A stretch of 32,898 bases of DNA. Origin: Bacillota bacterium. GTDB taxonomy: Bacteria; Bacillota; Sulfobacillia; JAJYWN01; JAJZPE01. Location of the stretch: assembly GCA_036504675.1 (NCBI GenBank), contig DASXUT010000053.1, forward strand, positions 1 through 32,898. The letters run 5' to 3'. A program made the position numbers and the translations under genes. Below, in pieces: positions 17,911 to 21,097 of the stretch (positions are counted from its first letter, which is position 1; each line of letters starts with the position of its first letter). The notes below the pieces were generated by a model. That model saw only the letters and a program-made list of their open reading frames with translations. It had not been told where the DNA came from and ran no database searches.

Positions 17911-18093
17911 GGTCCGAAATAGGGAACCCCACCATGCCGTGACGCCCCGTGTTTTGAACCTGCTTACGCAGGTGGGTGTCCTCCCGATGGCTCCCAGCGT
18001 CCCCTGGCACCCTTTGGTAGGTGGGGGCATGCTGTCGACCGCCGAAGTACAGACTCCCTAGGTATTGATGTTGGCTCAAAACCTATCGGACTT
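17911..18093 (-). ncRNA. ssrS: 6S RNA
   Basis: This minus-strand stretch of about 183 bases folds and reads as a 6S RNA, which binds the housekeeping RNA polymerase holoenzyme and mimics an open promoter. The ends pair (GTCCGA at 18091-18086 with TCGGAC at 17917-17912, and ATAGG with CCTAT). Inside, CCCCACC pairs with GGTGGGG, and GGGTG pairs with CACCC in the apical stem. The 3' strand of the central bubble has the family-typical small hairpin CCACCTGCGTAAGCAGGTTCAAAAC followed by CGGCA. A perfect terminator follows at once. TTGCAT-N18-TATCAT (18170-18199) is the nearest good promoter but would give a precursor some 70 bases longer. From memory, Bacillus also carries a 6S gene near aspS and rarA. 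Confidence 0.8.
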
Positions 18094-18408
18094 ACACGCA
18101 CACGGCAGGGTATCCGCGAAGCCTCAGAACTGATCGGCCGCGTCTGTGGCTCTTGCGACTCCGGTACTTATGATACCACTCCAACAGAAGCAAATGCAAG
18201 TCGGATAAAGATTTGCGTCGCAGCGCCTTTAGACTGGAATCGCGAAGGGTTTGCCTTCAAAGGGCGAACGAAAGTGGCGGAATCGGAAGGAATGGCGCCC
18301 CCGCACGTGGAATGTTTTTGGGAATCGCCGGAAAGCTTTAGCCCGGGAATCATAAGCAACCGCGGCGTAAGGCCCGGAAAAGCTGGCAAAAATCAAGCAT
18401 TTCTGGCA
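18094..18408. other. intergenic region between the 6S RNA and a secreted protein gene
   Basis: About 315 bases with no supported gene. It holds a possible minus-strand promoter for the 6S precursor (TTGCAT at 18194-18199, TATCAT at 18170-18175, spacer 18). The rest is purine-rich, with scattered GGAATCG-like words, and no fold or product I can recognise. Confidence 0.4.
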
Positions 18409-18436
18409 TTGCCAGCCGTGATATCCATGTTATAAT
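18409..18436 (+). promoter_or_regulatory. sigma-A promoter of the secreted beta-rich protein
   Basis: TTGCCA (18409-18414) and a perfect TATAAT (18431-18436) are 16 bases apart. Transcription should start near 18443, leaving a leader of roughly 105 bases. Confidence 0.8.
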
Positions 18437-18442
18437 AGGTTT

Positions 18443-18547
18443 ATATGTTTGTCATGTTCCGTCGAATTGTGCCGGCAAAGCTCCTGGAATCCCAACCGGT
18501 CTGCGGAATAGACTGGTACAAGTAAAGCAAGGAGGCAAGAGGGGCTC
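18443..18547 (+). promoter_or_regulatory. structured 5' leader, possible ribosome-site sequestration
   Basis: The leader holds a seven-base hairpin (CCGGTCT/AGACTGG, 18496-18516, one G-U pair). A CTCCT at 18481-18485 can pair with the AGGAG of the ribosome site (18530-18534), so the hairpin would sit inside a larger stem hiding that site. It does not match the c-di-GMP-I consensus or another class I know. Confidence 0.35.
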
Positions 18548-19045
18548 ATGAAGAAGGTTTTAGCACTTATCCTTTCCCTGTGCCTGGCGGTGGGCGGCAT
18601 CCTGCTCCTCGTCGAGGCCAACAAGCCGGCAAATGCGGCTGGTGGTACCGTTTCGGTTCAGGTGAAACCCGTACACAAGTTGGTCCTCACCCTAAGTACC
18701 CTATCGGTAGACTTTGGCGTGGACATGTGGCCGGGAGATACGGCGACGGCCGCTTCCCCCATCGGAGTGACGGTCGTGTCGAGTAAGGCCTGGAATCTCA
18801 CCTATGACGCGAGTGGGTTCCTGCCCGCCCCGGCGGCCTTCCCCCTGGCCAGCCTCAAGTACGGTGCGGCTTCAAATGGGACGGGCGCCGTGCCCTTCTC
18901 CTCAACCGGCACCCTCGTTACCGGGGCGCCTAAGACGTCCAAGGCTGGGGAGACCAACTCGTATTACTACACACTGACAATTCCCGATACAGCTGTGTCC
19001 GAGACCGTCTACACCGCTTCGGTGGTGTACACAGCGATACAGTAG
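18548..19045 (+). CDS. small secreted beta-sandwich-like protein
   Basis: A 165-residue exported protein. The signal peptide is MKKVLALILSLCLAVGGILL and more, with cleavage near NANA|A or ANAA|G (about residues 30-32). The mature part of about 135 residues has almost only Ser, Thr, Val, Ala and Gly in alternating strands, no cysteine, and a LSVDFGxDMWPGDTA then VTVVSSKAWNLTYDA pattern reminiscent of WxL-like, DUF4402-like or spore-coat-U-like beta-sandwiches. I cannot assign a family firmly. AAGGAGG and AGAGGGG precede the ATG. It has its own strong promoter and terminator, and lies just upstream of a membrane-anchored Ig-like protein. The abundance signals and small size suit a structural surface or matrix protein. 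The minus-strand protein at 20354-20827 shares its general layout. Confidence 0.85.
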   Translation: MKKVLALILSLCLAVGGILLLVEANKPANAAGGTVSVQVKPVHKLVLTLSTLSVDFGVDMWPGDTATAASPIGVTVVSSKAWNLTYDASGFLPAPAAFPLASLKYGAASNGTGAVPFSSTGTLVTGAPKTSKAGETNSYYYTLTIPDTAVSETVYTASVVYTAIQ

Positions 19046-19077
19046 CCGTGCGGGCTGCGCAGTGGTCTAGCAAATGG

Positions 19078-19115
19078 GAGTTGGAAGCCGCCAGGTCTCC
19101 AGCTCTTTTCTTTTC
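19078..19115 (+). terminator. terminator after the small secreted protein gene
   Basis: GAGTTGGA and TCCAGCTC-type arms (19078-19105) make an eight-base stem with one wobble, followed by TTTTCTTTTC. Strong intrinsic terminator, so the next gene depends on partial read-through or another promoter. Confidence 0.75.
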
Positions 19116-19200
19116 GGGTCTTTCCTTCGGTTCAACGTAGACCCGGGCCAGCCACGCCGGGTGCCGATGAATCCCTCTGATCTGGGAGGAGAGCGGCCCA

Positions 19201-20274
19201 TTGAGGACAAGAGCCTTCGCCCGTCTGCTTCTGACCTGGTTGGCCTTCGCCCTGGTTTGGCCGACTCCGGCCTTTGCCGCCGCGGGCATCGGGGTGTCCC
19301 CGGGCGTGATTGAAGTCGAGGCCATGCCCGGGCAGGTCATCGAGAAATCCGTGACCGTCTCCAACGAGGGGGACAGTCTGATCGATCTTCGCGCCTACGC
19401 CAGGGATCGGCGGGTCCAGCCGGGAGGGCAACTCGTTTTCCTTCCTCCGGGCAACCCAGTTGATTCCGCAGCCACTTGGCTGACCATCGACCCCGCTGAA
19501 GTCACCCTTCAGACCGGCAAGGAAGCGGTTGTCCGTTGGAAGGTGTCGGTACCTCAACAGGCCAGCCCCGGTGACCACGTCGCCGTCATCTTCTTCGAAG
19601 ATGCCCCCAAGACTCAAGGGGGCGGGTTGGTCATTGGGAGCAGAGTCGGTGTGGTCATCCCGGTTCACGTCGTCGGAAACACGGTTATGTCCGGCAAGCT
19701 CAGCAGCTTCCGCTGCCCGCCGGTACCGATCCAACTTAGACTTGTTCTCTTTGGGAAGAAATTGCTTTGGCGGACATGGGTGCCAGCCTTCCCCATTACC
19801 GAGCGCGGGCCCCTTAAGTTTGAGGCCGGCATTGAGAACACAGGAAACGTCCGCCTGGCGGTTGGCGGCAAGGTAGAGATAAGAGACGTCTTTGGCCGAA
19901 CCGTCACCACCATCGAGACGCCGGAGCCGATCAACATCTATCCACGTGATAACGGCAGTCTCACTCTTACTCTTGAACAAGTCCCCCTCATCGGCCGCTT
20001 CGTTGCCCTTGGTCGGTTCAGACTGGGCGACCAGGAGGTGACCGCCAGGACGGTATTCTACACGTTCCCAACCCGCAAGGCGGCCGGGGTAGCCCTTCTG
20101 CTCTTGGCCGGTCTGATCTTCGTTGGCCTACGGCGCCGTGGCCGAAGGGTCACCCCTTCGGAGACGGCCGGGCAGTCCCAACCATCCCCCGCGCCATCGT
20201 CACCACCGCCATCACCACCGTCATCGTCGCCGGGCGGTGTTCCCACGCGCAGGGAACGGAAGAAGCAGCGATAA
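19201..20274 (+). CDS. secreted membrane-anchored Ig-like (DUF916/PapD-like) protein
   Basis: A 357-residue protein starting at TTG with GGAGGAG about nine bases ahead. The signal peptide runs to PAFA|AAG (about residue 26). Residues about 28-140 form an Ig-like domain of the type seen in DUF916 and chaperone-like surface proteins: GIGVSPGVIEVEAMPGQVIEKSVTVSNEG, ATWLTIDP, VRWKVSVPQQASPGDHVAVIFFE. A second beta domain spans about 175-290 (LKFEAGIENTGNVRLAVGGKVEIRD, YPRDNGSLTL). A transmembrane helix (VALLLLAGLIFVGL, about 296-312) is followed by arginines and a 40-residue Pro/Ser tail on the cytoplasmic side. Relatives in Gram-positive bacteria accompany WxL-type proteins and help hold them at the surface; a similar job for the flanking small secreted proteins is an inference. 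Confidence 0.87.
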   Translation: MRTRAFARLLLTWLAFALVWPTPAFAAAGIGVSPGVIEVEAMPGQVIEKSVTVSNEGDSLIDLRAYARDRRVQPGGQLVFLPPGNPVDSAATWLTIDPAEVTLQTGKEAVVRWKVSVPQQASPGDHVAVIFFEDAPKTQGGGLVIGSRVGVVIPVHVVGNTVMSGKLSSFRCPPVPIQLRLVLFGKKLLWRTWVPAFPITERGPLKFEAGIENTGNVRLAVGGKVEIRDVFGRTVTTIETPEPINIYPRDNGSLTLTLEQVPLIGRFVALGRFRLGDQEVTARTVFYTFPTRKAAGVALLLLAGLIFVGLRRRGRRVTPSETAGQSQPSPAPSSPPPSPPSSSPGGVPTRRERKKQR

Positions 20275-20288
20275 CCAGTCAATGACAA

Positions 20289-20318
20289 GACACCGACCGG
20301 AGCCTTCCGGTCGGTGTC
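20289..20318. terminator. bidirectional terminator between convergent surface genes
   Basis: GACACCGACCGGA and TCCGGTCGGTGTC form a perfect 13-base stem with a four-base loop. It lies 14 bases after the Ig-like gene and 35 bases after the minus-strand secreted protein. The minus side continues TTGTCATTGACTGGTT. Confidence 0.85.
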
Positions 20319-20353
20319 GCCTTATTAGGGTGTGAATGAGTCAGGGTGTCGCC

Positions 20354-20827
20354 TCAGGGGGTTGGAACAATAACGTAGCTGAGCGCTTCCAGGGGATACT
20401 GGCCGACCTCGCCCTCTATCCTGAAACGGTGCTCAAAACGGTAGCCCTTCGTGGGCCGGCCCCGCTCAAGTGGTTGGTCCAGGGCGGCTTCCAGGCCATC
20501 CCCGTTGACTAGCGTGACCGAACCGGACGTGGCGGCAGGGCTCATCCTTTCCGCGCTTGCCAACAACTCCCAACCCGTATTGGCTTTGACGGTACCGCTT
20601 ACAATCAGGACGGTCGAGCCCCCGTCACGCTCTTCCCTTACAGTGTCCACTGTGAGCTGAAGGCTCTTCTTCACTTTCACCTTGACGGTGACCACCCCTG
20701 AGTTCGATGCCGCCGGGGTGGCTTCACCGGCGTCACCGGATGGGGCACCTTCCGCCACCACCATGGCGGCTGGGGGAGCCAGGTTGGCGATGAGGACGGC
20801 CGTCAACCCCAGGATGAGCCAGGTCAT
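20354..20827 (-). CDS. small secreted beta-rich protein behind a c-di-GMP riboswitch
   Basis: From ATG 20827 the protein has 157 residues: signal peptide (WLILGLTAVLIANLAPPAAMVVA), a short Gly/Ala/Ser linker, then a beta-rich domain (VVTVKVKVKKSLQLTVDTV, VLIVSGTVKANTGWELLASAER, YRFEHRFRIEGEVGQYPLEALSYVIV) without cysteines. The layout resembles the plus-strand protein at 18548. The ATG lacks a ribosome site and its signal peptide has no positive charge. Seven codons upstream, ATT at 20848 lies five bases after AAGGGAG and would add THRRSL, giving a normal charged n-region, so initiation at the rare codon ATT is plausible. The ribosome site overlaps the end of the riboswitch, implying control by c-di-GMP at translation. 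Function unknown; likely a cell-surface or matrix component. Confidence 0.82.
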   Translation of the reverse strand: MTWLILGLTAVLIANLAPPAAMVVAEGAPSGDAGEATPAASNSGVVTVKVKVKKSLQLTVDTVREERDGGSTVLIVSGTVKANTGWELLASAERMSPAATSGSVTLVNGDGLEAALDQPLERGRPTKGYRFEHRFRIEGEVGQYPLEALSYVIVPTP

Positions 20828-20858
20828 GAGACTGCGTCTATGCGTAATCGTCGCTCCC

Positions 20859-20962
20859 TTCGGCAGCCTGGCGGTCCGTGCCGGGTGCCTGGAAACGCCA
20901 CCCCGGCCTTGGGACCCATAGCTTTGCGCCCCCGCCTTCCGACGGGTTAGCCTTTATCGAGT
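20859..20962 (-). promoter_or_regulatory. cyclic-di-GMP-I (GEMM-I) riboswitch
   Basis: On the minus strand the aptamer reads GATAAAGGCTAACCC, a GTC-GGAA-GGC tetraloop stem, GGGGGCGCAAAGCTATGGGTCC, a second helix (GCCGGGGTG/CACCCGGC), GGACC and GGCTGCCGAAG. These match the class I c-di-GMP aptamer in order: the G-G-C with the ligand-binding G, the GNRA tetraloop, the conserved GCAAAGC, the second helix closed by GGTCC/GGACC, and the terminal GGCTGCC. The usual GGGACGC is GGGGCGC here. The 3' edge runs into AAGGGAG, the ribosome site of the secreted protein, and an upstream TCCCT can pair with AGGGA, so ligand binding may hide the site. The switch direction is inferred. Confidence 0.88.
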
Positions 20963-20996
20963 AGAGGGACTGACGCTGGCCTTTGGGCCAAGAAAA

Positions 20997-21030
20997 GCCC
21001 CGCCTACCGGGTTAATCGGCGAGGCGGGGC
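20997..21030 (-). terminator. terminator after aspS
   Basis: GCCCCGCCT and AGGCGGGGC make a nine-base stem 67 bases after the aspS stop, followed on the minus strand by TTTTCTTGG. Confidence 0.85.
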
Positions 21031-21097
21031 CGGTCGTCCAAAACGCGAGTTCCCGATTGGCGGAGGAAAAGCGAGCCCGGTGGCGGTATTGCCGGGT

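Follow-up and report, generated by a model that had tools for sequence, protein, structure and literature searches.

In published accounts, clusters that pair WxL proteins with a WxLIP partner are tools used by gut Bacilli, and the membrane helix of the WxLIP has been proposed to enter the host membrane (PMC10599100). One WxLIP with two WxL-like proteins is their commonest published make-up (98 of 179 clusters), and in an AlphaFold model a hairpin of the WxLIP completes the WxL sandwich (PMC10599100). The WxL domain itself is reported to bind peptidoglycan (PMC9772566, PMC10599100). Here we describe a related arrangement in a 32,898-nucleotide stretch of contig DASXUT010000053.1 (assembly GCA_036504675.1) from a Bacillota bacterium of the class Sulfobacillia, hereafter the window, whose positions serve as coordinates. 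Between positions 18409 and 20962 lie three neighboring genes, P1 (18548-19045, + strand), P2 (19201-20274, +) and P3 (20354-20827, -), the last of them behind a riboswitch for cyclic dimeric guanosine monophosphate (c-di-GMP). An original prediction, made from the sequence alone, had placed three exported proteins together here (18548-20827), and both the genes and their export were confirmed. With moderate confidence, we read the locus as encoding a surface assembly under c-di-GMP regulation, whose subunits P1 and P3 would be completed by P2 through strand insertion.

By profile comparison and model, P2 (357 aa, TTG start) is a divergent WxLIP to which pilus chaperones are almost as close in fold. 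Compared with canonical WxLIPs (seven proteins, taken from two Bacilli-type genomes), it matched over 223 columns spanning both Ig-like domains (HHalign 97.4%, E 1.2e-11); its match to the Pfam model PF06030 (WxLIP_PGBD) stayed below threshold, at 14.5-15.1 bits for a cut-off of 27.3. The NQIDKxxxYFDLK motif was absent from the alignment of P2-type proteins (A2) and partly present in that of canonical WxLIPs (A6). The predicted structure (pLDDT 84) comprises two beta-sandwiches and one C-terminal helix, then an Arg-rich stretch and a basic Pro/Ser tail. Foldseek ranked the E. faecium WxLIP 9i1y first and 9i25_C, a WxLIP bound to WxL, third, with the chaperones CfaA, CsuC and FimC interleaved with WxLIPs at E-values of about 1e-8 to 1e-11. 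As in WxLIPs, a C-terminal transmembrane helix is predicted (model residues 264-286; 20071-20139, +), and the RRRGRR that follows it, in keeping with the positive-inside rule, argues that P2 is anchored in the membrane of the cell that makes it. Because the Pro/Ser tail comes after both helix and Arg cluster, it is probably cytoplasmic; the Ig-like domains and membrane helix of the original prediction were upheld, with the tail now probably on the inner side. Shorter relatives of P2 across the phylum lack the helix and have the size of PapD-type chaperones. The end of the tail (20239-20274) and its counterparts at loci L018 and L019 share a conserved basic motif in three genomes (TRRERKKQR, SRSERKRRKRQ and SRRDRKKK).

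P1 (165 aa) and P3 (157 aa) are paralogues, and the family they form is not recognized by Pfam. Their profiles match each other (HHalign 98.2%, E 5.7e-14), and neither protein had a credible match in Pfam, NCBIfam or PDB sequence searches; PDB matches to Bap repeats and the ScaE cohesin were set aside as compositional or short-motif only. The original prediction could name no family for the two. By profile comparison they are remotely WxL-like and have lost the second W-x-L motif. The P1-like profile aligned with canonical WxL along the full domain, 127 columns with the first Trp motifs in register (HHalign 70%, E 4e-5), and a 21-sequence profile of the mature domain scored 29.7 (42%, E 2.6e-4) compared with 14.6 for the reversed and at most 12.8 for permuted controls. 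The first small-protein alignment gave no significant HHalign match to WxL and the P3-like profile alone no direct one. The first W-x-L motif is present in both (W-N-L in P1, W-E-L in P3); the second reads Y-T-A in P1 (YTASVVYTAIQ) and is absent from P3. The WxL family model, PF13731, matched neither protein and none of 151 genomes of the window's class, and on sequence these subunits fail formal WxL membership. The DUF916/WxL flavor suggested originally holds as homology, of P2 to WxLIP and remotely of P1 to WxL, and not as a formal match to PF13731 or PF06030. Of the two small proteins, described originally as cysteine-free, P3 is so and P1 has a single Cys inside its signal peptide, leaving both mature proteins without one.

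The fold of P1 resembles that of fiber subunits. Its model (pLDDT 93.4) retrieved TasA-like proteins, CupE and the donor-strand fiber subunits TasA (as a fiber), FimG and CsuA/B. Unrelated folds without an interface would have spoken against a common system; as far as folds go, those of P1 and P2 form a matched pair by comparison with the PDB, that of fiber subunits and their chaperones, with a WxLIP also solved bound to WxL. The first 13 residues of mature P1 (GGTVSVQVKPVHK; 18641-18679, +) lie outside any strand of the monomer model and carry an alternating V-x-V-x-V pattern seen in most homologues, which makes them a candidate donor strand. This pattern was reached in none of 5000 shuffles of 14 sequences, although these are kin and the shuffles not independent. 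A third paralogue in the same genome, standing alone (contig C36, L017:8407-8973), has a Gly/Ser/Asp linker in place of this N-terminus and is possibly an acceptor without a donor strand, such as a cap or tip.

The same features could serve a platform for static anchoring of the kind published for WxL clusters, in which P1 and P3 bind peptidoglycan and P2 stabilizes them by strand insertion without polymerization. The WxL and WxLIP homology, the published peptidoglycan binding by WxL (PMC9772566, PMC10599100) and relatives whose subunit domain is fused to Fn3 or F5/8C modules, like large WxL proteins, all agree with such a platform. It accounts less well for the conserved free V-x-V-x-V N-terminus combined with the fold match to donor-strand subunits, or for several relative clusters with three to four subunit genes, which are more like a fiber operon. 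We consider the platform possible, if on the unlikely side. Weak profile matches to the ScaE cohesin and NPCBM_assoc raise another alternative, in which the subunits would act in adhesion, as carbohydrate-binding or cohesin-like modules, and P2 would be an independent surface protein with Ig-like domains; yet the cohesin likeness is confined to a short C-terminal motif (E 0.06), and the subunits are conserved with P2 far above chance, making this very unlikely.

We followed this co-conservation in 154 genomes of the window's class and in 348 Bacillota genomes. A strong P2-type match occurred in 10 of the former, with a P1-type gene adjoining in all ten. Across the phylum sample, 33 genomes matched the subunit profile, 61 the P2 profile and 31 both, against 5.8 expected (p 5e-25); the genes were adjacent in 20 clusters, and eight clusters had two subunits. 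The recurrence in relatives anticipated by the original prediction was therefore found at both depths. A chance neighborhood of unrelated secreted proteins, to which the lack of Pfam matches for P1 and P3 might point, is already refuted by this conservation, and we give it next to no credence. In the same-family genome G001, aspS, P3, P1, P2, a 6S RNA gene and the threonine aldolase gene lie together, with the P1-P2 block in the opposite orientation. A scan of genome contigs returned no locus when P2 alone was the query and one, in Clostridia bacterium AS04akNAM_48 (G055), when a pair alignment was used; the P3 match in G002 was uninformative, lying at aspS where the contig ends. G055 also holds an additional subunit-like gene (L018:3165-3486) with signal peptide and C-terminal half in different frames, a broken gene or an assembly error. 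In G081 (L091:2577-7749), about 3.5 kb with a mobile-element-type ATPase-like open reading frame interrupts a WxLIP-like gene, and each half of that gene matches another part of the profile. Most phylum-wide clusters (L167-L173, L176, L178) are flanked by a secreted protein of about 900-1100 aa, usually convergent with a lone subunit; two of these proteins were scanned and carry SdrD_B-like and NEW3-type domains. No such protein was seen beside the window cluster.

Riboswitches connect these clusters to c-di-GMP. The aptamer expected upstream of P3 was identified as an intact c-di-GMP-I-GGC element adjoining the P3 Shine-Dalgarno sequence (20858-20961, -; 66.9 bits against an Rfam gathering cut-off of 59, E 8e-16). 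We found c-di-GMP riboswitches in or beside the clusters of at least 14 genomes (G000, G001, G055, G387, G172, G315, G253, G410, G286, G474, G454, G445, G358 and G396). Thirteen enlarged phylum loci (113 kb) held 17 of them, where the density in the window's own genome (6 in 3.28 Mb) would lead one to expect about 0.2. In eight loci both classes occur, with class II preceding the subunit-WxLIP operon and class I a lone subunit; a class-II switch stands at the head of the subunit(-WxLIP) operon in 10 relatives. Each of the nine class-II leaders examined has a hairpin that begins in the 3' end of the aptamer and is followed by a T-run; in some leaders it escaped the script's stem search and was recognized by eye. 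Because aptamer and terminator are mutually exclusive, class II reads as an ON switch, and c-di-GMP should turn on the operon by anti-termination. The recurrence of both gene set and switches indicates that the locus is more than chance. None of the canonical WxL clusters examined had a c-di-GMP riboswitch and no report in the literature searched links such riboswitches to WxL or WxLIP clusters.

In G396, a DUF4402 subunit replaces the WxL-like one. A class-II riboswitch precedes this subunit and a WxLIP-like gene, and tandem class-I switches precede another small secreted protein (L095: 1535-1620, 6965-7049 and 7110-7188), which on its face is the same regulatory logic with a different subunit family. 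The other class-I switches of the window's genome (L099-L103) lie before type IV pilin-like genes, flgB/flgC/fliE, two membrane proteins and a ParM-like gene, as identified from sequence motifs, and suggest a motility and surface regulon.

From these results we infer a pathway with P1 and P3 as secreted beta-sandwich subunits of WxL-like type and P2 as a WxLIP held in the cell's own membrane. As subunits exit the Sec channel, P2 would capture them by an inserted strand that completes the sandwich; it is expected to act on both P1 and P3 because it is homologous to the WxLIP of the published model and of the 9i25 complex. Once released, the subunits would probably join a surface assembly by donor-strand exchange, in which the N-terminal V-x-V-x-V strand of each would enter its neighbor; P1 would be the main subunit and P3 a variant. 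The output would be set by c-di-GMP, which in relatives would turn on the subunit(-WxLIP) operon through class-II anti-termination and act through class I on a separate, lone subunit; of these switches the window retains just the class-I one, on P3. No Omp85 protein was found in the genome (7 of 14 controls were positive), so we expect a monoderm host and no usher route.

Several results weigh against this assembly model. The pairing of subunit and chaperone is known here from the genes and from separate monomer models. The Foldseek E-values of P1 were modest (1e-3 to 1e-1, TM 0.45-0.53), and the WxL chain 9i25_A was not within its top 50 matches. Likeness of P1 to E. coli pilins was rejected, as the profile comparison was not significant, and the P2 profile scored marginally against E. 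coli chaperones, slightly above permuted controls. Only three of the ten class clusters have a riboswitch, folding of the Shine-Dalgarno region in class-I leaders gave no clear ON or OFF direction, and in distant genomes the lone subunits under class-I control correspond to P3 in position, without clear orthology. Moreover, the 5' untranslated region of P1 had no riboswitch even at a relaxed Rfam threshold, leaving P1-P2 without a detected switch. P1 and P2 could then be a constitutive surface system, with c-di-GMP relevant only to P3 and the description of a c-di-GMP-controlled system overstated. The near-consensus promoter predicted originally is consistent with this: TTGCCA and a perfect TATAAT, 16 nt apart and with the TG of an extended -10 element (18409-18436, +; sigma-70-type, 11 of 12 consensus matches), is present in a region with two promoter-like sites against 0.6 expected. 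So is the inversion of the P1-P2 block relative to G001, whose class-II switch it lacks. Set against it are the class-II switches of the ten relatives and the membership of P3 in the same assembly family. We regard constitutive expression of P1-P2 as plausible, though rather doubtful. The c-di-GMP-controlled surface system proposed originally is supported, with the correction that the window has a detected riboswitch only before P3, while relatives also have one before the P1-P2 operon.

The remaining elements of the locus bear on expression of the three genes. The strong terminator predicted after P1 is there (19076-19107, +), with a 10-bp stem, a 12-nt loop and a TTCTTTT tail; its loop lies outside the 3-8 nt range of the promoter/terminator tool and it was detected by a separate scan. 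Lying between P1 and P2, it may lower the output of P2 relative to P1. Both the tool and the scan detected a terminator after P3 (20289-20318, -), between the convergent P2 and P3, and the scan placed the terminator of the upstream aspS gene at 20996-21031 (-), separating aspS from the riboswitch unit. The start of P3 is uncertain. Its Shine-Dalgarno sequence, AAGGGAG, lies 26 nt upstream of the ATG and 5-8 nt before in-frame ATT and ACG codons (20845-20848), so that an ATT or ACG start, which would add a basic n-region to the signal peptide, may fit better than an ATG that has no good Shine-Dalgarno. A 6S RNA gene (17922-18114, -; 93.7 bits) sits between the threonine aldolase gene and P1, as one does beside the G001 cluster (L019:7368-7558).

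The relatives in uncultured bacteria outside the Bacilli, the positive-inside helix of P2 and the absence of a helix from its shorter relatives argue for own-membrane anchoring and a chaperone role for WxLIP-type proteins. More tentatively, and with less than even confidence, we propose a monoderm counterpart of chaperone-subunit pilus pathways across Bacillota, in which membrane-tethered or soluble WxLIP-type chaperones would pass WxL-like or DUF4402 subunits to donor-strand polymerization without an usher, and two c-di-GMP riboswitch classes would decide which subunits are made. If so, this second messenger would determine what the fibers are made of as well as how much is made. Together, the WxLIP fold and the TasA/Csu-like subunit fold open donor-strand assembly in monoderms to testing, and the riboswitch pairing offers a direct, genome-readable link between c-di-GMP and surface assembly across the phylum.

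Among known systems, the locus shares with the WxL-WxLIP (Csc) clusters of Lactobacillales and Bacillales (PF13731, PF06030/DUF916, DUF3324) a layout of one two-Ig membrane protein and two small or large WxL-like proteins, as well as the homologies of P2 and, remotely, P1. By layout, one WxLIP with at least two WxL-like proteins, it would count as a WxL cluster, but those proteins fail PF13731; the second W-x-L changed to Y-T-A or similar, the missing NQIDK motif, the position outside Bacilli and the riboswitch link set it apart. With archaic chaperone-usher pili (CsuC-CsuA/B, CupE) and Fim/CFA pili it shares the two-Ig chaperone, in fold only, and an incomplete subunit sandwich with an N-terminal strand; it differs in having no Omp85 or other outer-membrane sign, Cys-free subunits, a membrane helix in P2 and no significant profile match to E. 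coli pilins. The TasA-TapA fibers of Bacillus subtilis offer a secreted beta-sandwich subunit assembled by donor strands in a monoderm, and P1 matches the TasA fiber structures (8aur, 9ikj) in fold, yet no sequence relation to the TasA/camelysin family was found in Pfam or NCBIfam, the partner is a two-Ig WxLIP and not TapA, and no SipW-type signal peptidase gene was seen next to P1-P3. The riboswitches belong to c-di-GMP-I-GGC (RF03167), above the gathering score in the window, and to c-di-GMP-II (RF01786), with the usual anti-terminator logic in relatives; what differs is that relatives place both classes within a single surface locus, each on a different subunit. Failing the defining tests of both families, the system yet resembles both the WxL-WxLIP pair and the chaperone-subunit fold pair.

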